From Flavobacteriaceae bacterium UJ101 (lineage in GTDB: Bacteria > Bacteroidota > Bacteroidia > Flavobacteriales > UJ101), in NCBI GenBank assembly GCA_001880285.1, contig CP016269.1, positions 1,126,501 through 1,190,500 of the forward strand: a stretch of 64,000 nt of DNA, written 5' to 3'. A program made the position numbers and the translations under genes. Below the pieces are notes generated by a model that was not told where the DNA came from, did not search any database, and saw nothing but the letters and a program-made list of their open reading frames with translations. Position 1 is the first letter of the stretch. Every line of letters starts with the position of its first letter. This document shows positions 15,177 to 32,999 of the stretch, piece after piece.

Positions 15177-16721
15177 TTAATTATTAGTTGGAGTGGATAA
15201 CTTTTCCATCACTTTATCTAAACTAAAACTAGCTGCTTCCATTCTTGGTGGAAAATCTTTAAATGTTTTCAAAAAGTTCCCTACATATGCCTGTGCTGGA
15301 ACTAATAAAAAAACATGATCCAATTCCCAATCATAATAGGTATTTGAAGTAATGGTCGAAAACTCATACGGATCTCTTCTTAAATTAAAAATCAGTGGAA
15401 CACGCAATGGTGTAAATGGTTCTGCCCATACCTTTAATGTTCCTGGTGCTCTTTGCTCCATAAAAATAATCTTCCAGTCATCATAACGTAAAGCAGTTAA
15501 ATCTCCATCATCAGAAAAATAGAAAATTTCTTTACGCGGACTCTCTTTTTCTTCTCCTGTTAAATAAGGTAAAATATTATACCCATCCAAATGAACCTTG
15601 AACCCTTTGTAACCTTTTAATAATTTCTCTTTCACATCATCTTGTCCTGCTGCTGCTAATAATGTCGGCATCCAATCCATTCCTGAAACTATCTCATTCG
15701 AAACAGAGCCTTCTTTAATATGATTGGGCCATCTTACCATTGCAGGAACTCTCCATCCTCCTTCCCAGTTCGTATTCTTCTCTCCTCGGAAAGGATTGAC
15801 ACCAGCATCAGGCCAAGTATTCTTATGAGGACCATTATCTGTACTATACATTACTATCGTATTATCTGCAATTCCCAATTCATCTAATAGTTTTAAAAAC
15901 TTTCCTACATGCATATCATGTTCTACCATTCCATCTCCATATTCATCTTGCCCTGATATCCCTCTTAATTCTTCTTTTACATGCGTTCTAAAATGCATAC
16001 GTGTTCCATTCCACCATACAAAAAATGGCTTATCATTTTTAACTGCATCTTTAATAAAGCGAATTGCTGCATCTGAAGTCTCATCATCAACTGTTTCCAT
16101 TCGCTTCTTAGTTAATGCTCCTGTATCTTCAATTTTACCTCCTGCATAAGAATGAATCACTCCTCGTGGCCCAAATTTCTCCTTAAAACGAGGATCTTTA
16201 GGATAATCCGGTAATTCCGGTTCCTCTTCTGCATTTAAATGATACAAATTCCCAAAAAACTCATCAAATCCATGATTCGTAGGTAAATGCTCATCTCGAT
16301 CTCCCAAATGATTTTTCCCAAACTGTCCTGTAACGTACCCCAAAGGCTTCAACAATTCTGCAATAGTTGGATCTTTTTCTGAAATACCTTCTTTGGCTCC
16401 TGGCATCCCTACTTTACTTAATCCAGTTCGGTATACACTCTGCCCTAATATAAATGAAGAACGTCCAGCAGTACAACTTTGTTCTGCATAATAATCAGTA
16501 AAAATCATCCCTTCATCTGCAATTCGATCGATATTCGGCGTTTTATAACCAACCATCCCTTTTGTATAAGCACTAATATTAGATTGACCTATATCATCTC
16601 CCCAAATAACCAAGATATTGGGCTGTTTGGTCTGTGCATTTATCATTTGCACCATAAAAACAAAAACTAATAGATATAAAAGTTTTTGTCTCTTCGTCTT
16701 TTTAAAAATACGTGTTTTCAT
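15177..16721 (-). CDS. Secreted arylsulfatase, copy 1 of a recent duplication
   Basis: The 514-residue protein has a signal peptide ending MINAQ. The metal-binding Asp42-Asp43 lies in NILVIWGDDIGQ, the formylglycine motif is CTAGR with Cys83, and the metal motif is STDNGPH. It differs from the sulfatase at 18156 at about 14 positions out of 514, four of them in the first ten residues. It is divergent from the AraC regulator at 17086. It is a periplasmic or surface sulfate-ester hydrolase needing a formylglycine-forming or radical SAM maturase encoded elsewhere. The substrate is unknown. Confidence 0.92.
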   Translation of the reverse strand: MKTRIFKKTKRQKLLYLLVFVFMVQMINAQTKQPNILVIWGDDIGQSNISAYTKGMVGYKTPNIDRIADEGMIFTDYYAEQSCTAGRSSFILGQSVYRTGLSKVGMPGAKEGISEKDPTIAELLKPLGYVTGQFGKNHLGDRDEHLPTNHGFDEFFGNLYHLNAEEEPELPDYPKDPRFKEKFGPRGVIHSYAGGKIEDTGALTKKRMETVDDETSDAAIRFIKDAVKNDKPFFVWWNGTRMHFRTHVKEELRGISGQDEYGDGMVEHDMHVGKFLKLLDELGIADNTIVMYSTDNGPHKNTWPDAGVNPFRGEKNTNWEGGWRVPAMVRWPNHIKEGSVSNEIVSGMDWMPTLLAAAGQDDVKEKLLKGYKGFKVHLDGYNILPYLTGEEKESPRKEIFYFSDDGDLTALRYDDWKIIFMEQRAPGTLKVWAEPFTPLRVPLIFNLRRDPYEFSTITSNTYYDWELDHVFLLVPAQAYVGNFLKTFKDFPPRMEAASFSLDKVMEKLSTPTNN

Positions 16722-17085: not shown

Positions 17086-18090
17086 ATGGAATTAATCATA
17101 AAAACTCTTTCTTTTAAGCGTATTTATACATTATTACAAAAAAAATCCAATGGATATAAATATTTTAGATTTGGATTCACTTTTAATACCCCAAAAGCTG
17201 AAGGTTTTTTAAAACATTACACACTCCATGAAGGTTTTGAAGCTTTAATTTTAGAAGGTGTCTTTAAAGAAGATTTAACTATTACCTTCTCTCCTAAAGA
17301 AAAGCAACAATCTCATTTTTTTTTAAATGCTTCTTTAAATAGTGGTTTATCTTATATTCAAGAAAAACAAACCTTAAATTTAGATGAACATATTATTTTT
17401 CATGAATTCAATCATAGTCAAATTAAAATCCCTAAGGGGAAAAAATGTCAAGCTGTTTTTTTATCTCTTTCTAAACGTTTTTTAAAAGAGTTTCCTGAAA
17501 AAAATTGGGATCATATTAACAAAATATATGAAATGTCTGCTCCTCAAGCAATAGTTAATCAAAATTATAAGACAAAAAAATACCTCGAAAAACTATTTCT
17601 TGCACAAACTTTTGATTATGGAGTTAAGACTGCTTCTTTTATTAATATATATAAAATAGGTAGTGAATTTTTTTTCATATTATATAAACAATCAGAAGAT
17701 CGAAAATTAAAAAATGAGAATACACTATCCATACGAGATATCTTAGATCTAAATAATGCTTACGAATATATGGTTGCACATAGTACTTCACCACTAACCT
17801 TATCAGAAATTGCATCATTATATAATATGAGTAATAGTAAGTTTAGAAAAATTTTTACAATACACTTTAAAATACCTTATAAAAAAGCGGTTTTCAAATT
17901 AAAAATGGAAAAAGCCAAAGAGCTTCTTTTACAGGGTTATAATGTAAGTGAAGTTTCGAATATTTTAAATTACAGTCAAGTCAGCAAACTTTCTCAAGCA
18001 TTTAAAAAATACCATAATGTTCTTCCCTCTAAATTAAAAGATGATAGTAAGAATATCGATTTAGCTAAACAAACTATTCTGAATGATTAA
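17086..18090 (+). CDS. AraC-family transcriptional regulator, paralogue of the one at 12568
   Basis: The 334-residue protein has a C-terminal AraC double helix-turn-helix (LSEIASLYNMSNSKFRKIF and NVSEVSNILNYSQVSKLSQAF). It aligns along its whole length with the regulator at 12568, sharing for example KLKMEKAKELLLQGYNVSEVS. It is divergent from sulfatase copy 1 and convergent with copy 2, so it probably controls one or both. The N-terminal sensing domain is unassigned. Unlike SusR-type hybrid two-component regulators it has no membrane segment, so it should sense a cytoplasmic ligand. Confidence 0.9.
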   Translation: MELIIKTLSFKRIYTLLQKKSNGYKYFRFGFTFNTPKAEGFLKHYTLHEGFEALILEGVFKEDLTITFSPKEKQQSHFFLNASLNSGLSYIQEKQTLNLDEHIIFHEFNHSQIKIPKGKKCQAVFLSLSKRFLKEFPEKNWDHINKIYEMSAPQAIVNQNYKTKKYLEKLFLAQTFDYGVKTASFINIYKIGSEFFFILYKQSEDRKLKNENTLSIRDILDLNNAYEYMVAHSTSPLTLSEIASLYNMSNSKFRKIFTIHFKIPYKKAVFKLKMEKAKELLLQGYNVSEVSNILNYSQVSKLSQAFKKYHNVLPSKLKDDSKNIDLAKQTILND

Positions 18091-18155: not shown

Positions 18156-19700
18156 TTAGTTATTAGTTGGAGTGGATAACTTTTTCATCACTTTATCTAA
18201 ACTAAAACTAGCTGCTTCCATTCTTGGTGGAAAATCTTTAAATGTTTTCAAAAAGTTCCCTACATATGCCTGTGCTGGAACTAATAAAAAAGCATGATCC
18301 AATTCCCAATCATAATAGGTATTTGAAGTAATGGTCGCAAACTCATATGGATCTCTTCTTAAATTAAAAATCAGTGGAACACGCAATGGTGTAAATGGTT
18401 CTGCCCATACCTGCAAAGTACCTGGTGCTCTTTGCTCCATAAAAATAATCTTCCAGTCATCATAACGCAAAGCCGTTAAATCTCCATCATCAGAAAAATA
18501 GAAAATTTCTTTACGTGGACTCTCTTTTTCTTCTCCTGTTAAATAAGGTAAAATATTATACCCATCTAAATGAACCTTGAACCCTTTGTAGCCTTTTAAT
18601 AATTTCTCCTTCACATCATCTTGTCCTGCTGCCGCTAATAATGTCGGCATCCAATCCATTCCTGAAACTATCTCATTCGAAACGGATCCTTCTTTAATAT
18701 GATTGGGCCATCTTACCATTGCGGGAACTCTCCATCCTCCTTCCCAGTTCGTATTCTTCTCTCCTCGGAAAGGACTAACCGCTGCATCAGGCCAAGTATT
18801 CTTATGAGGACCATTATCTGTACTATACATTACTATCGTATTATCTGCAATTCCCAATTCATCTAATAGTTTCAAAAACTTTCCTACATGCATATCATGT
18901 TCTACCATTCCATCAGCATATTCATTCTGTCCTGATATTCCTCTTAGCTCTTTTTTCACATGTGTTCTAAAATGCATACGTGTTCCATTCCACCATACAA
19001 AAAATGGCTTATCATTTTTAACTGCATCTTTAATAAAGCGAATTGCTGCATCTGAAGTCTCATCATCAACTGTTTCCATTCGCTTCTTAGTTAATGCTCC
19101 TGTATCTTCAATTTTACCTCCTGCATAAGAATGAATCACTCCTCGTGGCCCAAACTTCTCCTTAAAACGAGGATCTTTAGGATAATCCGGTAATTCCGGT
19201 TCCTCTTCTGCATTTAAATGATACAAATTCCCAAAAAACTCATCAAATCCATGATTCGTAGGTAAATGCTCATCTCGATCTCCCAAATGATTTTTCCCAA
19301 ACTGTCCTGTAACGTACCCCAAAGGCTTCAACAATTCTGCAATAGTTGGATCTTTTTCTGAAATACCTTCTTTGGCTCCTGGCATCCCTACTTTACTTAA
19401 TCCAGTTCGGTATACACTCTGCCCTAATATAAATGAAGAACGCCCAGCAGTACAACTTTGTTCTGCATAATAATCAGTAAAAATCATCCCTTCATCTGCA
19501 ATTCGATCGATATTCGGCGTTTTATAACCAACCATCCCTTTTGTATAAGCACTAATATTAGATTGACCTATATCATCTCCCCAAATAACCAAGATATTGG
19601 GCTGCTTAGTCTGTGCATTTATCATATGCACCATAAAAACAAAAACTAATAGATATAAAAGTTTTTGTCTCTTCACCTTTTCAAAAATATTTCCTTTCAT
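18156..19700 (-). CDS. Secreted arylsulfatase, copy 2 of a recent duplication
   Basis: With the ATG at 19700 the protein has 514 residues and aligns exactly with copy 1 (MKGNIF against MKTRIF). An ATG two codons upstream at 19706 is possible but unmatched in the paralogue. The metal-binding aspartates, CTAGR and TDNGPH are all intact. About 97% of residues are identical to copy 1. The changes cluster at the N-terminus, in LRGISGQ(D/N)EY(G/A)DG and at DA(G/A)V(N/S)PF, near the likely substrate face. It follows a DUF2490 gene divergently rather than an AraC gene. It may therefore be a dose or specificity variant. Confidence 0.92.
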   Translation of the reverse strand: MKGNIFEKVKRQKLLYLLVFVFMVHMINAQTKQPNILVIWGDDIGQSNISAYTKGMVGYKTPNIDRIADEGMIFTDYYAEQSCTAGRSSFILGQSVYRTGLSKVGMPGAKEGISEKDPTIAELLKPLGYVTGQFGKNHLGDRDEHLPTNHGFDEFFGNLYHLNAEEEPELPDYPKDPRFKEKFGPRGVIHSYAGGKIEDTGALTKKRMETVDDETSDAAIRFIKDAVKNDKPFFVWWNGTRMHFRTHVKKELRGISGQNEYADGMVEHDMHVGKFLKLLDELGIADNTIVMYSTDNGPHKNTWPDAAVSPFRGEKNTNWEGGWRVPAMVRWPNHIKEGSVSNEIVSGMDWMPTLLAAAGQDDVKEKLLKGYKGFKVHLDGYNILPYLTGEEKESPRKEIFYFSDDGDLTALRYDDWKIIFMEQRAPGTLQVWAEPFTPLRVPLIFNLRRDPYEFATITSNTYYDWELDHAFLLVPAQAYVGNFLKTFKDFPPRMEAASFSLDKVMKKLSTPTNN

Positions 19701-20044
19701 GATCATGTATATTATACTATTATTAAAATCTTTTTCAAATAAATTGCTAATAGCAACCGTGTTTAAAACATAGCCTGAATAGCAATATTAAAAGAACTGA
19801 TACTTAAAATTAAATACTCATAAATGATGTTTTCATATTTTTTCGATAGGTTAAAGTATTTTAATATAATCTTAACTATATCATATTAATTATTTAATAT
19901 TTAAAATACTATTATTCAGTTAGTTAAATAAATATTGTAATTATTCAATAAATTATGCCTAATCGTTATTTTATAATCCTTTATCGATTTTAGGTTAAGA
20001 TTATAGCTATGAAATATTTAATTTTATAGAATAATTCATCATTA
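19701..20044. promoter_or_regulatory. Divergent control region (sulfatase copy 2 / DUF2490 gene)
   Basis: This gap of 344 bases has no gene. ATCGTTATTTTATAAT (19962-19977) is identical to a stretch upstream of sulfatase copy 1, followed by ATCGAT (19983-19988) where copy 1 has AACGAT. This points to one regulator acting on both copies and perhaps on the DUF2490 gene. Confidence 0.45.
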
Positions 20045-27208: not shown

Positions 27209-27221
27209 GTGCTCACGACTG
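27209..27221. repeat. Left attachment repeat of the tRNA-Leu element
   Basis: GTGCTCACGACTG is an exact 13-bp direct copy of 32915-32927, which is the 3' end of the tRNA-Leu gene (discriminator, acceptor strand and part of the T stem). This is what remains of the original tRNA 3' end after integration. Confidence 0.85.
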
Positions 27222-27364
27222 AAATACAAACAGTTACATATTTTTTTATTCAATTTTATGCAAACCTATACTATTACTTACCTCAATGTAATTAGAACTA
27301 ATATTCAATGTAAAGTAAAACATAGTTAAATCCACTATAATAAAGTTTATATCGGTAAAAATTG

Positions 27365-27381
27365 AGGTAAAAGTTTTACCT
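27365..27381. promoter_or_regulatory. Palindromic operator-like site ahead of the integrase
   Basis: AGGTAAAA and TTTTACCT form a perfect 8-bp inverted repeat around one base, 20 bases before the integrase ATG. It matches the palindrome at 26658-26672. Confidence 0.55.
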
Positions 27382-27401
27382 TAGTATAAAATTACATTAT
27401 T

Positions 27402-28700
27402 ATGACAGTACGATACTTTATTATTAAAACTAGCAAAGCTGAATATGTAAGTATTTATGTTCGTTTCTTAGGACATGATAGATATGATGAACGTACAGTA
27501 ACTGGATTAAAAATAAAAAAAGATCAATGGAGCGTAAAAGATCAAAAAGTTAAACCTAAAAGTATTGTACCTCAACGTGAATTTATAAACAACCATTTAA
27601 TACATCTTAAATCACATTTATATGATGCTTACAACGTAACTTATAATTCTAAAAGCTATATTAAAAAAAATTGGCTTAAAGATGAGGTAAACAAATATTT
27701 TGGTAGAGCTAAAAAAGATGAAACTTATAAAATATACTTTACTGATTGGGTTGGCAAATTCATACAAGATTCACATAAAAGATTAAAAAAAGATGGTAAT
27801 GGCACAATTTCATTATCCACTCAAAAATACTATAAAACAGTGTATAATAAGCTTATTCAATACGAAAAGTATAAAAAAATCAAACTGAGATTTGAAGATA
27901 TTAATTTAAAATTCTATGAAGATATAGTATTTTATTTAAGAGAAGATCAAAAGCTTAATAATAACACTATTGGTGGAACAATTAATAAAATTAAATTATT
28001 CTGCAAACAAATAGAGTTACAAGGCTTACCAATAAACATACAGTATAAAGAATTTAAAGCCCCTAGTAACAAAACATTTGACACCTACTTAAATGAAGAT
28101 GAAATCAATAAAATATTTCATTACGATTTTAGTAAACAACCTAGTTTAGATAATGCACGTGATTTATTTATTATTGGATTATGGACTGGTTTAAGAATTT
28201 CAGATTTTATGCGTTTAAAAGATTTAAATATAAACGAAGAATTTATTGAAATAACAACGCAAAAAAATGATGAACCTGTAATTATACCTATGCATAAACA
28301 AATTAAAAGCATCCTAAAAAAATATAATGATGATTTACCTTATAAAATATCAGATCAGAAATTCAATAAACACATAAAAAGAATTTGTAAAATTGTTGGA
28401 ATAGATCAAAAAATCAAAGGTTCTAAAATGAATTCAATAACCAAACGTAAAGAAGTGGGAATATATCATAAATATGAGCTTATAGCCAGCCACGCATGCC
28501 GTAGGTCTTTTGCTTCTAATTTATACGGTAAATTACCCAATATGGTTATTATGAGTATTACTACACATAAAACAGAAGCTCAATTTTTAAAATATATTAA
28601 GATAACCAAACAAGAACATGCTAATACCTTAAAAGAATTTTGGGCTAAGCAAAAAGAAGAAAATAAATACGAAAGTGTAACTATGAAAATTGTTAAGTAA
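27402..28700 (+). CDS. int: Tyrosine recombinase / integrase
   Basis: The 432-residue protein has an N-terminal arm-binding part, a SAM-like core-binding domain (about residues 110-215) and a C-terminal catalytic domain. The catalytic residues seen are Arg265 in GLWTGLRISD, His364 and Arg367 in HACRRSF, His389 in TTHKTEAQF and the nucleophile Tyr398 in LKYIK. Lys288 may be the beta-strand lysine. It would integrate and excise the element at the tRNA-Leu 3' end, and it lies 180 bases from the left attachment site. A palindrome 20 bases upstream may be the repressor site. Confidence 0.95.
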   Translation: MTVRYFIIKTSKAEYVSIYVRFLGHDRYDERTVTGLKIKKDQWSVKDQKVKPKSIVPQREFINNHLIHLKSHLYDAYNVTYNSKSYIKKNWLKDEVNKYFGRAKKDETYKIYFTDWVGKFIQDSHKRLKKDGNGTISLSTQKYYKTVYNKLIQYEKYKKIKLRFEDINLKFYEDIVFYLREDQKLNNNTIGGTINKIKLFCKQIELQGLPINIQYKEFKAPSNKTFDTYLNEDEINKIFHYDFSKQPSLDNARDLFIIGLWTGLRISDFMRLKDLNINEEFIEITTQKNDEPVIIPMHKQIKSILKKYNDDLPYKISDQKFNKHIKRICKIVGIDQKIKGSKMNSITKRKEVGIYHKYELIASHACRRSFASNLYGKLPNMVIMSITTHKTEAQFLKYIKITKQEHANTLKEFWAKQKEENKYESVTMKIVK

Positions 28701-28715
28701 TTAAAATTAAAAAGC

Positions 28716-29768
28716 ATGAGTCAAGAATGGTATAAAGATTATGAAACAAAAGTTAAAAATTTCTTTTATTTATCAAAAAAATGGAGTGTTACAACTAGTA
28801 CAAAAGAAATACCTTATCCAATCAAAATGTTTGAAAAACTTAACCTTTTACCTTATGATAGTAATAATAAAATTTTAATTCAAGATGAACTTAATGATTT
28901 TAAAACAAAATTATATGACAAATTAACCAGTACTAGTAATAATTCAGAAATAATATTAATGGATTTAGAAAATAGTTTTATACCTTTTATAATTGAATAC
29001 AAAGAATGGTATAGAACTAATGAAAGTTTATTAAAAAAATTCGAACCCTATTCTCCATATAAATTTATGCATGGAGAAATTATTGATTTAGAAAAAGAAT
29101 TACTAAAATATTTAAATAAGTATAATATGGTATTTAATGACTTCTCAGATTTTACAGATCATTATAAACAATATAGTAATATTATTACTATTGATAATAC
29201 AGGGAATGCATTATCTAAATATAAAAATATTAAATCACAATCACAAAACATGGAAACACCTACAGAATACGAAAAGATAAAAGAAAAAGTAGAAAGTGGG
29301 CTTCATCATTTTAAAGAAAAAATTAACGTGTATTTTTCTGAACGTCAATATTGTAATAACACCCAACTTAAATATGACAAAGAGTTTCATAGATTACTAA
29401 ATTTTTACTTTAAATATAAAGAACTTTATAATCAAATTGATACACCGACAAAAATTAATGATGATAAAAAACAATACGAGTGGTGGTTTCAAGTGGGCTT
29501 ATTATTTGCAACTGGTGAGATAAATAAGCTAATGGATGAATATGACCAGAATGCAACTAAGCTTGCAAAAGGTTATTTTCAAAATGAAAATGCAACACGT
29601 CCATGGATTTCATCTACGTATAATAATAATGACAACAATAAAAACCTTTATAATTATCAAAACTTCGATAAAATTAAAAAACTTATGAATCATTGTGAAC
29701 AAGAAGATATTATAACTTGCGAAAAGTTTAAATCACATTGTGATAAAATTAAGTATGATTTAGAATAA
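28716..29768 (+). CDS. Unknown element protein of 350 residues
   Basis: The protein is soluble and acidic-basic mixed, with many Asn, Lys and Tyr residues. It has no signal peptide, no membrane segment and no motif I recognise. It contains helical stretches such as KFMHGEIIDLEKELLKYLNKYN and EYEKIKEKVESGLHHFKEKIN, then a tract WWFQVGLLFATGEINKLMDEYDQNATKLA that may be the conserved core. It follows the integrase by 15 bases and is probably cotranscribed with it. The low-complexity NNNDNNKN tract near the C-terminus is a linker. No function is proposed. Confidence 0.7.
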   Translation: MSQEWYKDYETKVKNFFYLSKKWSVTTSTKEIPYPIKMFEKLNLLPYDSNNKILIQDELNDFKTKLYDKLTSTSNNSEIILMDLENSFIPFIIEYKEWYRTNESLLKKFEPYSPYKFMHGEIIDLEKELLKYLNKYNMVFNDFSDFTDHYKQYSNIITIDNTGNALSKYKNIKSQSQNMETPTEYEKIKEKVESGLHHFKEKINVYFSERQYCNNTQLKYDKEFHRLLNFYFKYKELYNQIDTPTKINDDKKQYEWWFQVGLLFATGEINKLMDEYDQNATKLAKGYFQNENATRPWISSTYNNNDNNKNLYNYQNFDKIKKLMNHCEQEDIITCEKFKSHCDKIKYDLE

Positions 29769-29780
29769 AATAAAAATATC

Positions 29781-29839
29781 CGTACTCAGTACGTACCAGT
29801 ACAAGTATAGTACTATGAAGTAATATTTAATATTGCTTC
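29781..29839. promoter_or_regulatory. Cluster of three palindromes and five GTAC steps before the excisionase-like gene
   Basis: CGTACTCAGTACG (29781-29793) and ATAGTACTAT (29807-29816) are perfect palindromes. GAAGTAATATT and AATATTGCTTC (29817-29827 and 29829-29839) pair with one G-T. GTAC occurs five times in about 33 bases. The cluster ends exactly at the next ATG. It could be the operator or replication origin of the element. Confidence 0.5.
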
Positions 29840-30133
29840 ATGAAATTATTCATTTCAGAAACGACAGCAGAAGAGTTAGTAAGCACGTTTCAAATTAAGG
29901 TAAAAGAGGTAATACAAGAAGAGGTAAATAAATTTAAACCTCAACAAAAGCAAGAATTAAAATTCTACACACGTAAAGAGGTTTGCAAGCTTCTTGGTAT
30001 TTCATTAGTAACGCTTAGTAGTTACATTGATAAAGGCGTTATATCATGTAATAGAATTGGCAAAAATATCCGTTTTACTGATAAACATATTACAGATGCT
30101 TTAATAGATATTAATAACAAAAAAACCGCCTAA
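29840..30133 (+). CDS. Excisionase-like helix-turn-helix protein
   Basis: The 97-residue protein has a C-terminal winged HTH of the MerR/excisionase type: YTRKEVCKLLGISLVTLSSYIDKGVISCNRIGKNIRF. This is the domain-17-type HTH common beside replication and recombination genes in Bacteroidota elements. The N-terminal 45 residues form a helix rich in Glu, Lys and Gln. It may direct excision or control the genes that follow. The palindrome cluster directly upstream is a likely target. Confidence 0.82.
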   Translation: MKLFISETTAEELVSTFQIKVKEVIQEEVNKFKPQQKQELKFYTRKEVCKLLGISLVTLSSYIDKGVISCNRIGKNIRFTDKHITDALIDINNKKTA

Positions 30134-30136
30134 GCT

Positions 30137-30511
30137 ATGAAAAATAAAAATTTTCAAAAAAAAGGCGATCTTAACTTATTCTGTGACAAGAACAAAGTTA
30201 AGGAATTATATCTAAATAGCATTGTAGAGAATACGTTAAAAAAGTTGGACTATGAAACTATTGAAGATTTTAAACGTCAATATACCGAAGAACGAATATT
30301 TGAACTAGCATTAAAGAACAATACTACAACTACAACCGCAGTATGTCATGCTTTTAGTATTGAGCAGAAAAATGCTACACGCTACAAACGAAACTTAGAA
30401 GAAGCTAATCGTCTAATTGTATTGATACCACGTAGCAAAAGGAAACGTTGCCCTATCACTGGTTTCATTGCAAGTTTCCTAACTACTAATACAAACTTAA
30501 TCAACAACTAA
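30137..30511 (+). CDS. Small basic element protein, possibly HTH
   Basis: The 124-residue protein starts three bases after the excisionase-like gene stops, so the two are coupled. The segment IFELALKNNTTTTTAVCHAFSIEQKNATRYKRNLEEA looks like a helix-turn-helix in which TTAVCHAF and NATRYKRNLE are the helices. It resembles phage-type proteins that decide between host genes by pairing DNA-binding to a short tail, but no family is assigned. The C-terminus is RKRCPITGFIASFLTTN. Confidence 0.65.
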   Translation: MKNKNFQKKGDLNLFCDKNKVKELYLNSIVENTLKKLDYETIEDFKRQYTEERIFELALKNNTTTTTAVCHAFSIEQKNATRYKRNLEEANRLIVLIPRSKRKRCPITGFIASFLTTNTNLINN

Positions 30512-30513
30512 AC

Positions 30514-31407
30514 GTGATTGATTTTATCAAAGCACGTATTATTAACACAAATGAGCAAATCCTCTTAACTAATGATTTGCTCAATTTCACTCAAACATCT
30601 AAAATAAATGATACGACAAATAAAAAAGAAGTTATCCGAAAACAGGCTAAATATCGAGCTATTACTATTACTATTTTTAAAAATAATCAAATTATTATTA
30701 GCGGGTCACTTCATAAATATTTTGCTCACATGATGGATATAAAAGCACCAATAGCATCAAATAAAAAAAATGATTTTAATGGCTTTGATTTTAAATATTC
30801 CATGTTGGTTAAGGTACTAGATGATTTAAAAAATAAATTTAAAATACCATTAGAAAACTATGTATTGCAAAATATTGAGTTTGGTGTTAATATAAAGCCT
30901 CCTATTGCTTCAAATTTAATTTTAGATAATCTAATTCTGCATAATGGTATAAGCTTTATAGAGCCAATTAAAAACTACAAGCAAGCCGACCATTTTGAAT
31001 ATAAAATAAAAATCTATGATAAAGCAAAGCAGTATCAATTAAATGAACCATGCATTAGAATAGAAAATAAATATGTTAAAATGAGAAAGGCAAATAAAAT
31101 GGGAATTTATAACCTCAGCCACTTAGGTAATTTAAAAATACTTGATAAATTACAAGTTGATTTATTAGAGCGTTTTAATGAAATTCTAATTTATGATGCT
31201 ACAATTGATAAGAGTAAATTAACACAAAGGCAAAAAATAAAGCTAAAAGATTATTGTAACTCTAATTATTGGCTAAGCTTAAAATCCACAAATAGACATA
31301 GACCAAAACAAAGGTATTTAAGTATTGTTAAAAATCATTCAACTGATATTAAAGAAACACTCTTTGAAATAATTGAAGATAAAACGCATTATTTAATTTC
31401 TGCATAA
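30514..31407 (+). CDS. Probable replication initiator of the element (phage gene II/X-like)
   Basis: The 297-residue protein starts at GTG three bases after the previous stop. The stretch KIKIYDKAKQY followed about ten residues on by PCIRIENKYVKM and later YNLSHLGNL recalls the KxYDKxxEx...LRIExR pattern of rolling-circle initiators of filamentous phages and related elements (phage II/X or RepT-like families). No clear HUH motif is visible, so a nicking activity is not shown. It would start replication of the excised circle. This is a resemblance in motif order, not a search result. Confidence 0.5.
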   Translation: MIDFIKARIINTNEQILLTNDLLNFTQTSKINDTTNKKEVIRKQAKYRAITITIFKNNQIIISGSLHKYFAHMMDIKAPIASNKKNDFNGFDFKYSMLVKVLDDLKNKFKIPLENYVLQNIEFGVNIKPPIASNLILDNLILHNGISFIEPIKNYKQADHFEYKIKIYDKAKQYQLNEPCIRIENKYVKMRKANKMGIYNLSHLGNLKILDKLQVDLLERFNEILIYDATIDKSKLTQRQKIKLKDYCNSNYWLSLKSTNRHRPKQRYLSIVKNHSTDIKETLFEIIEDKTHYLISA

Positions 31408-31466
31408 AGATACACACCTAGTAATATAAAGTGTATTTTTATGCTACTAAATATGAAATACAATAA

Positions 31467-32180
31467 ATGGAAAAGACAAAGGATTTTAGTGACTTATTCG
31501 AGTCAACCAATAATGAAAATAATAAGATAAATTTAAAAAGGCTAATCACTCATGAATTAGGTCATTATGTAACAAATTACTTGATTCATAAAAATATTGA
31601 TGATGACCAATTCAAACCTACCGAAATATTTATTAATCCAAGTACAGATGGTGGAGGTGTTAAATGTGGAGACTTACCTTATGGTAAACTTAATAATAAT
31701 CAAAAATATTATAATCTAATTTCTACTATGGCTGGAATAATTTTTGAATCTGTAATATTAGATAATGATCAAATTTTAGAGTATTTAGATATTAATAAAA
31801 TTCAATATAATATAACCAACAATAGTAATGATTTTTCACGATATTATAGACCTTTAGCAATTAGTGATATAAGTATTATTAAGGTGTATTCTAATAATCA
31901 TGATTTTTATGGCAAGGAATTAATATTTAATTATGTCAAATTACTAGATGAAGATTTTAAAAAATTAATTTCTAAAATTGCATCTGAATATACTAATGAG
32001 ATTTTGAATAATAATGATAATGAATTATTATTCAAAACAGGAAATGAGTCAATAACAAAATATAATTTTAATTTAGATATTTTAAATAAAAAAATATTTG
32101 AAAATGATTCTATTAATACGTTTAGAATAAATTTCAATCAATTTATTAATGATAATTTAAATAACTTCGTTAACAATTAA
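31467..32180 (+). CDS. Stand-alone zinc peptidase-like protein resembling the FtsH M41 domain
   Basis: The 237-residue protein has HELGH at residues 29-33 (His29, Glu30, His33), then DGGGVKCG at 61-68, TMAGIIFES at 88-95 and NSNDFSRYY at 119-127. In FtsH-type (M41) proteases HEAGH is followed by a GG(R)xAE helix and by SND, whose Asp is the third zinc ligand, in this order. No AAA ATPase part is present and there is no signal peptide. It may be a cytoplasmic toxin, anti-defence or defence peptidase, or a zinc-binding scaffold. It is the element's main cargo candidate. Confidence 0.6.
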   Translation: MEKTKDFSDLFESTNNENNKINLKRLITHELGHYVTNYLIHKNIDDDQFKPTEIFINPSTDGGGVKCGDLPYGKLNNNQKYYNLISTMAGIIFESVILDNDQILEYLDINKIQYNITNNSNDFSRYYRPLAISDISIIKVYSNNHDFYGKELIFNYVKLLDEDFKKLISKIASEYTNEILNNNDNELLFKTGNESITKYNFNLDILNKKIFENDSINTFRINFNQFINDNLNNFVNN

Positions 32181-32200
32181 GGTTATTAATTCTAATTTAA

Positions 32201-32824
32201 AGTAATAACATCGGACGTATAGGAACATATCCAACTACTATAGAACAATATAAAAGAATCAGTATCTCATATTTTAAAAAAAATGGTATACTTGATAAGA
32301 ATGTTTATAATGCAACAGGAACTATACAGTATACAAGAAATAATGAGCCATCTGGTTCTGTAGGATATGAATTTAACAGAACAAAGAAAGGTTTATGTAC
32401 AATACGGTTTTATTATACTATATCAAATAGGTACTTAGATGAAAAAAGAGATATAAGCTTTACAGTACAGTTAATTAAATTAAAATCTAATCTTAACAAC
32501 TCATACCGCTATTACTTTAAATGCCCTAAAACAGGTCTTAAATGCATTTATTTATACGAATCAAACTCGCATGAATATTTCCTCCATCGAAGCTGTGCTA
32601 ATGCTTATTACGAAAGTCAAATAAGAAGTAAAAACTATAGAAGATTAGATAAATTATATTCTAACATATTTAGATTTGAAAATAATGAGTTTGGTAATAG
32701 ATATGAAAAGTACAGAAAAAAATATTATAAGGGTAAATTAACTAAGTGGTATAAGAAGTATTTAGATGAAGAAAATAAATATAATTCATTTATTATAGCT
32801 GGTGGACTTAAACAAATAATATAG
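32201..32824 (+). CDS. 207-codon open frame without any ATG, GTG or TTG codon
   Basis: The frame is open from a TAA at 32198 to the TAG at 32822 and encodes SNNIGRIGTYPTTIEQYKRI onward, with CPKTGLKC (a zinc-knuckle-like pair), SHEYFLHRSC and a basic C-terminus. I read every codon: none is a standard start and the protein has no methionine. The N-terminus GRIGTYPTTIEQYK resembles a short protein family I recall from Bacteroidota mobile elements, where it begins with Met close to this point. So either the start codon was lost (TAA now sits where ATG would be) or a rare start such as ATC or ATA is used. Confidence 0.6.
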   Translation, partial: SNNIGRIGTYPTTIEQYKRISISYFKKNGILDKNVYNATGTIQYTRNNEPSGSVGYEFNRTKKGLCTIRFYYTISNRYLDEKRDISFTVQLIKLKSNLNNSYRYYFKCPKTGLKCIYLYESNSHEYFLHRSCANAYYESQIRSKNYRRLDKLYSNIFRFENNEFGNRYEKYRKKYYKGKLTKWYKKYLDEENKYNSFIIAGGLKQII

Positions 32825-32914
32825 ATTTAATTTATTACAATGTAAAAAAGTCGGTAAAAAATCAATTGAATATCATTTAAATAATTGAAAAACAATACAT
32901 TAATAACAATATGA

Positions 32915-32927
32915 GTGCTCACGACTG
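32915..32927. repeat. Right attachment repeat within tRNA-Leu
   Basis: GTGCTCACGACTG is the second copy of the 13-bp att repeat. It covers the discriminator base, the 3' acceptor strand and the start of the T stem of the tRNA gene on the minus strand. Confidence 0.85.
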
Positions 32928-32999
32928 GATTCGAACCAGCACACGCATAAGCGCACCACCCCCTCAAGATGGCGTGTCTACCAATTCCACCACGTGAGC
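32916..32999 (-). tRNA. tRNA-Leu (anticodon GAG)
   Basis: The 84-base minus-strand sequence folds as a class II tRNA. The acceptor arms are GCTCACG and CGTGAGC with discriminator A, the D arm has GGTAGACAC, the anticodon stem CCATC/GGTGG encloses TTGAGGG with GAG at 32963-32965, a variable arm follows, and the T arm is TGCTGGTTCGAATCCAGT. The CCA is not encoded. A TATATTTG promoter element lies 14 bases upstream. Its 3' end is the integration target of the element. Confidence 0.95.

Follow-up and report, generated by a model that had tools for sequence, protein, structure and literature searches.

The frame at positions 32201–32824 (plus strand) of the window, i.e. of the whole stretch of 64,000 nucleotides from Flavobacteriaceae bacterium UJ101 analysed here, contains no ATG, GTG or TTG codon and is nevertheless, judging by its homologues, a real gene which belongs to an undescribed protein family. 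It is the last (terminal) gene of a small Bacteroidota element that integrates into tRNA genes, and the alignment with its relatives indicates that an ancestral ATG at 32210–32212 became ATC with the remaining frame left intact. We lean towards regarding the window gene as a recently de-started copy, either hypomorphic or dead, in preference to a gene with a maintained AUC start.

An open frame without a start codon

Read from stop to stop, the frame comprises 207 codons between an in-frame TAA at 32198–32200 and its closing TAG, with no canonical start lying further upstream in the same frame and none near the ATC in any frame. The initial annotation was thus right that a standard start is absent throughout. 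The lack of methionine in the product, which it also pointed out, is true yet a mild feature, having a probability of about 1.6% for a gene this long here, and internal methionine is absent from two of the 66 family members when the window copy is counted. The assumption that so long a random frame is very unlikely to stay open was borne out by 60 sequences of 64 kb each, simulated with a first-order Markov model, in the six frames of which not a single run of at least 207 codons occurred.

The genome is a single contig of 3.07 Mb, and a census of 2.33 Mb of it (76%), with a set of 1,809 non-overlapping frames of at least 130 codons, returned three frames whose first 35% contains no canonical start. 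The window frame was the only start-less case exceeding 150 codons and the only one without any start at all, so start-less frames of this size are characteristic neither of the genome nor of its assembly.

Homologues of the frame

Relatives were obtained from six-frame genome searches and a profile, while single-sequence scans of GTDB species representatives and viral contigs gave zero relatives. The six-frame searches produced matches in 14 other genomes of the 396 in the order, 27–38% identical and with E-values down to 2e-21, and also matched plasmids of Hymenobacter, Methylobacterium and Acuticoccus. The profile search found 80 loci among the GTDB species representatives, nearly all of them from Bacteroidota, and one viral contig. 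Taken together, the relatives share 26–38% identity with the start-less frame and occupy about 80 loci, which confirms the earlier view of it as a coherent coding frame. Phages and the 396 genomes of the order yielded no close relative, and the searches at genus and family level covered the UJ101 genome alone.

A profile made without the window sequence scores the window frame at 136 bits, and this frame is homologous to the family over its full length, including the core F.CP.T...C, YF.HR and Y.GK.TK. The CPKTGLKC cysteine pair noticed earlier turned out to be part of the first of these elements; in the CP..T...C motif of the family the first cysteine is invariant and the second is conserved in at least 90% of members.

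Searches of Pfam, NCBIfam, PHROGs and PADLOC (the last with ten members only) gave no convincing family model for the terminal gene, and the best match to its protein in a PDB sequence search had an E-value of 0.75; both the family and the 19-bp site described below are undescribed in the family libraries used. The predicted structures of the window protein and of its relative at locus L044 have a mean pLDDT of 90, these being deep-alignment models which are no proof that the window copy works. Compared with solved and viral structures, the L044 model had no Foldseek match below an E-value of 0.001, and its highest VIA-align Z was 4.7, which carries little weight either way.

The element in tRNA-Leu and the upstream 19-bp site

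The element spans 27209–32927 (5.7 kb) and is integrated in a tRNA-Leu (gag) gene located at 32915–32999 on the minus strand, as found with ARAGORN. The 13-bp repeat GTGCTCACGACTG is present at both ends: the right att repeat (32915–32927) is the 3′ end of the tRNA-Leu, and the left one (27209–27221) is an exact copy of it. The tRNA gene with its att repeat is 90 bases downstream of the start-less frame. All the genes of the element are on the plus strand, beginning with a tyrosine integrase (27402–28700; Pfam Phage_integrase, 2.2e-11; same cluster in 39 loci), followed by a 350-aa protein of unknown function with no family match, probably cargo (28716–29768), an excisionase-like HTH protein (29840–30133; Pfam HTH_17, 6.3e-08; same cluster in 48 loci) and a small conserved element protein (30137–30511; same cluster in 28 loci). 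The next gene has a GTG start and codes for a conserved element protein with no Pfam family (30514–31407; same cluster in 14 loci), occupying the place of the replication genes in other elements. It is followed by the gene called M41-like in the initial annotation (31467–32180), which is probably cargo and the translation of which bears the HELGH motif; this protein has no Pfam or PHROGs family and in NCBIfam matches SprT only weakly (E 0.017). Its frame stops at 32180, 20 bases before the start-less frame, and is a different reading frame.

The other core genes and both att repeats of the window element are in place. In the relatives the gene order is integrase, cargo, HTH gene, small gene, replication genes and terminal gene, with the replication genes coding for a D5-type primase/helicase with DUF6371 or being of other types. 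Of 76 loci, 20 have a tRNA gene at most 1.5 kb downstream of the terminal gene, in every case on the complementary strand. Elsewhere in the window, two nearly identical sulfatase-like genes are situated at 15177–16721 and 18156–19706 (minus strand) with an AraC-like regulator gene between them (17086–18090), all three named by eye.

Upstream of the terminal gene there is a 19-bp site, TTCCYTAADNATTTAGGTT, matched at 15 or more of its 19 positions in 68 of 79 family frames. The window has a degenerate version of it, TTCGTTAACAATTAAGGTT (16 of 19), at 32166–32184 on the plus strand, which overlaps the end of the HELGH-bearing gene, precedes the ATC by 25 nt and is the sole match of at least 16/19 within the window. 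The spacing between site and start varies from 0 to about 180 nt and reaches about 2 kb in one genome (G056), so a role as a ribosome signal is unlikely. Other matches of at least 16/19 number about 20 in 1.8 Mb of flanking sequence with both strands counted, and a slightly looser pattern searched with zero mismatch in 148 genomes of the order occurred in three genomes only, all of which carry the gene. When mismatches are relaxed, the frequency of the site is at chance level genome-wide, so that the window copy is meaningful by its position only. The protein and the site showed no significant co-divergence (Spearman 0.17, p 0.19).

Its position and co-occurrence with the gene suggest that the 19-bp sequence is a putative DNA site serving the element or its terminal protein, and the normal role of the protein is probably to act with this site to maintain, move or control the element. 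Tandem pairs of divergent copies of the gene, about 600–650 bp apart, were observed at loci L019, L041, L043 and L090, in several cases with each copy having its own 19-bp site; such an arrangement looks more like stacked units than a simple duplication.

ATC in the ancestral start column

In the intact relatives the protein begins at one and the same alignment column in nearly every case, the N-terminal patterns being M-G-R-W/Y ... YPTTVE or M-P-K-P-.-T-F-P-T-L-Y-D. In the window frame this column falls on codon 4 (ATC GGA CGT, 32210–32218). Among 73 non-redundant frames reaching the N-terminus, it is occupied by ATG in 69, by TTG in two (one of which is a frame-shifted copy), by ATA in one and by ATC in one, the latter being the window frame. 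The homology search that had been suggested for locating the start in relatives therefore puts the ancestral start exactly on the ATC at 32210–32212, a codon which the initial annotation had listed among its candidates and which is taken here as the inferred initiation site. Since the starts of the relatives align to codon 4, the gene did not begin elsewhere, and one base of the ATG differs. The window copy is thus devoid of a trait of the family, ATG at the first alignment column, and this is treated as a change within the family and not as a reason for exclusion.

A second full-length member without a canonical start was found at L076:3911 (plus strand), with ATA at the start column and an intact 19-bp site (18/19); it comes from a metagenome assembly, and the ATA is possibly an error. 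At L024:5553–6010 the start column is a TTG located at a junction, and the gene lies about 400 bp away from the site, so cargo may have been inserted between them.

Decay or use of the window copy

According to the reading we lean towards, the ATG of the last gene of the element would have changed to ATC recently, initiation at AUC, held down by IF3, would give no more than a small fraction of the protein once made, and the window copy would be hypomorphic or at the first step of decay and not a gene with a different type of start. It is favoured because of the homologues at about 80 loci, the start column itself, the uniqueness of the frame in the surveyed part of the genome, the decay of family copies elsewhere, and the deviation of the window copy at 8 of 31 near-invariant columns along with its degenerate 19-bp site. 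The frames of the relatives, whose disruption had been named initially as a sign of neutral decay, are mostly intact and ATG-started, but truncation, a frameshift or a missing N-terminus is seen at roughly ten loci, which means that copies of the terminal gene do decay, although some of these may be metagenome assembly errors.

In a neutral simulation the probability of acquiring no stop was 0.08 at 0.05 and 0.01 at 0.1 substitutions per site, and the distance between the window copy and its relatives exceeds 2 amino-acid substitutions per site; silencing, if it occurred, would therefore be recent, and the intact frame fits a recent change given the value of 0.08. The mutational target comprises seven start-destroying substitutions versus 144 nonsense ones, indels being additional, so start-only lesions would make up a few per cent of lesions and finding one or two of them is unsurprising, the window copy having been selected for study precisely by its missing start.

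With its eight deviations the window copy ranks third of 75, yet nine near-invariant columns deviate in each of two members that are intact and start with ATG, so that this count does not demonstrate relaxed constraint. Compared with the neighbouring genes of the element, the divergence of the window copy is high, placing it among the faster members and not making it unique, and relaxed constraint on it is suggestive only. What counts against a de-started copy is that 207 codons are still open, that full-length L076 has ATA in the same column and that infC in this genome uses an AUH start.

The infC gene of UJ101 (L131, G000:C1:2967303–2967806, minus strand) has no ATG, GTG or TTG at its start; the region reads AAA TTA GAA GCC ATA GCA ATT AGA, with ATA where IF3 begins. 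Almost all of the 27 infC frames of the order, in columns read by eye, start with ATC, ATA or CTG, and ATG is found in two. It follows that the machinery here initiates on AUH codons, with low efficiency. Working AUC starts outside infC are rare. Near-cognate infC starts under IF3 feedback are already known, and repression of start codons by IF3 has been documented as a means of regulation (PMC5472188).

It is possible, if less likely, that the ATC is a working and selected start which serves deliberately low, IF3-dependent translation like that of infC and Streptomyces sigR, with an output that perhaps rises when IF3 is limiting. The infC gene of UJ101 with its ATA and those of sister genomes, which use ATC, speak for this, as do the fully open frame and the ATA of L076. 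The context score of the ATC likewise resembles that of a true start, corresponding to the 40th percentile of true starts and the 92nd of random sites, and A is present at −3 and −6, which favours initiation in F. johnsoniae (PMC6847099). Folding of the RNA around the ATC shows nothing special. Against a selected start, the relatives use ATG and the near-cognate codon is not conserved in the family, L076 being the sole other AUH case; the rarity of AUC starts beyond infC weighs in the same direction. A more far-reaching version, according to which the gene is functional, AUC-initiated and IF3-controlled and its protein forms with the 19-bp site a core module shared by integrative elements of Bacteroidota whose replication genes differ, seems doubtful to us.

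In translational coupling, ribosomes that terminate at 32180 at the end of the upstream gene would start again at the ATC, which follows on the same strand after 29 bases and has no other start nearby in any frame; we hold it to be improbable, since re-initiation normally still requires a usable start codon and the upstream gene is cargo absent at this place in relatives. A base-calling or assembly error for ATG is about as improbable: one base would restore the family start and the frame is the only such one in 2.33 Mb, but the genome is a complete single contig (99.95% complete), an isolated substitution error is unusual, and the 19-bp site is degenerate too. A chance open frame in an AT-rich region, or the product of read-through from the neighbour ending just upstream, as proposed in the initial annotation, is refuted by the homologous loci, by the lack of random frames this long and by the reading frames, as ribosomes leaving the upstream gene are in another frame and meet TAA after two codons (GGT TAT TAA), and the target frame itself has its TAA at 32198.

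A gene finder limited to ATG, GTG and TTG would skip the start-less gene and, in the same genome, miss where the essential infC truly starts. The frame constitutes a clean natural test of whether, in a phylum not reliant on Shine-Dalgarno pairing, a gene other than infC can be sustained by an AUC start, and tracing it revealed a Bacteroidota-wide element module consisting of the terminal protein and the 19-bp site. If the more far-reaching version above were true, a function of the element would be tied to the initiation fidelity of its host.

Comparison with known systems

The window gene resembles infC (AUU, AUC or AUA) and Streptomyces sigR (GUC) in having a near-cognate codon in the start column, where these genes are repressed by IF3 (PMC5472188). 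For infC, however, such a start is the rule in the order, whereas in the terminal-gene family it is an exception among ATG starts, and the conservation among orthologues that accompanies IF3-regulated genes is not seen in this family.

The elements studied here resemble P4-like and PICI satellites (PMC8628076, PMC6092414) in being small and integrated into a tRNA gene and in having a tyrosine integrase, an AlpA-like HTH gene and, in many relatives, a D5-type primase/helicase; of these genes the window element has the integrase and an HTH gene. They differ in that no helper phage is known for them. No packaging or capsid-size gene was recognised with Pfam or PHROGs among the window element proteins, this absence not being proof. 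To our knowledge, the terminal gene and the 19-bp site are not part of P4-like or PICI systems.

As regards the relaxase (Mob) gene and oriT of Tn4555-type mobilizable elements of Bacteroides, no Pfam relaxase was recognised among the proteins of the window element, some of which have no assigned family. In the Tn4555-type elements the order is integrase, excisionase, AAA ATPase, DUF6371 protein and hypothetical protein (PMC13183296), and it is this gene order that many of the relatives found here resemble.
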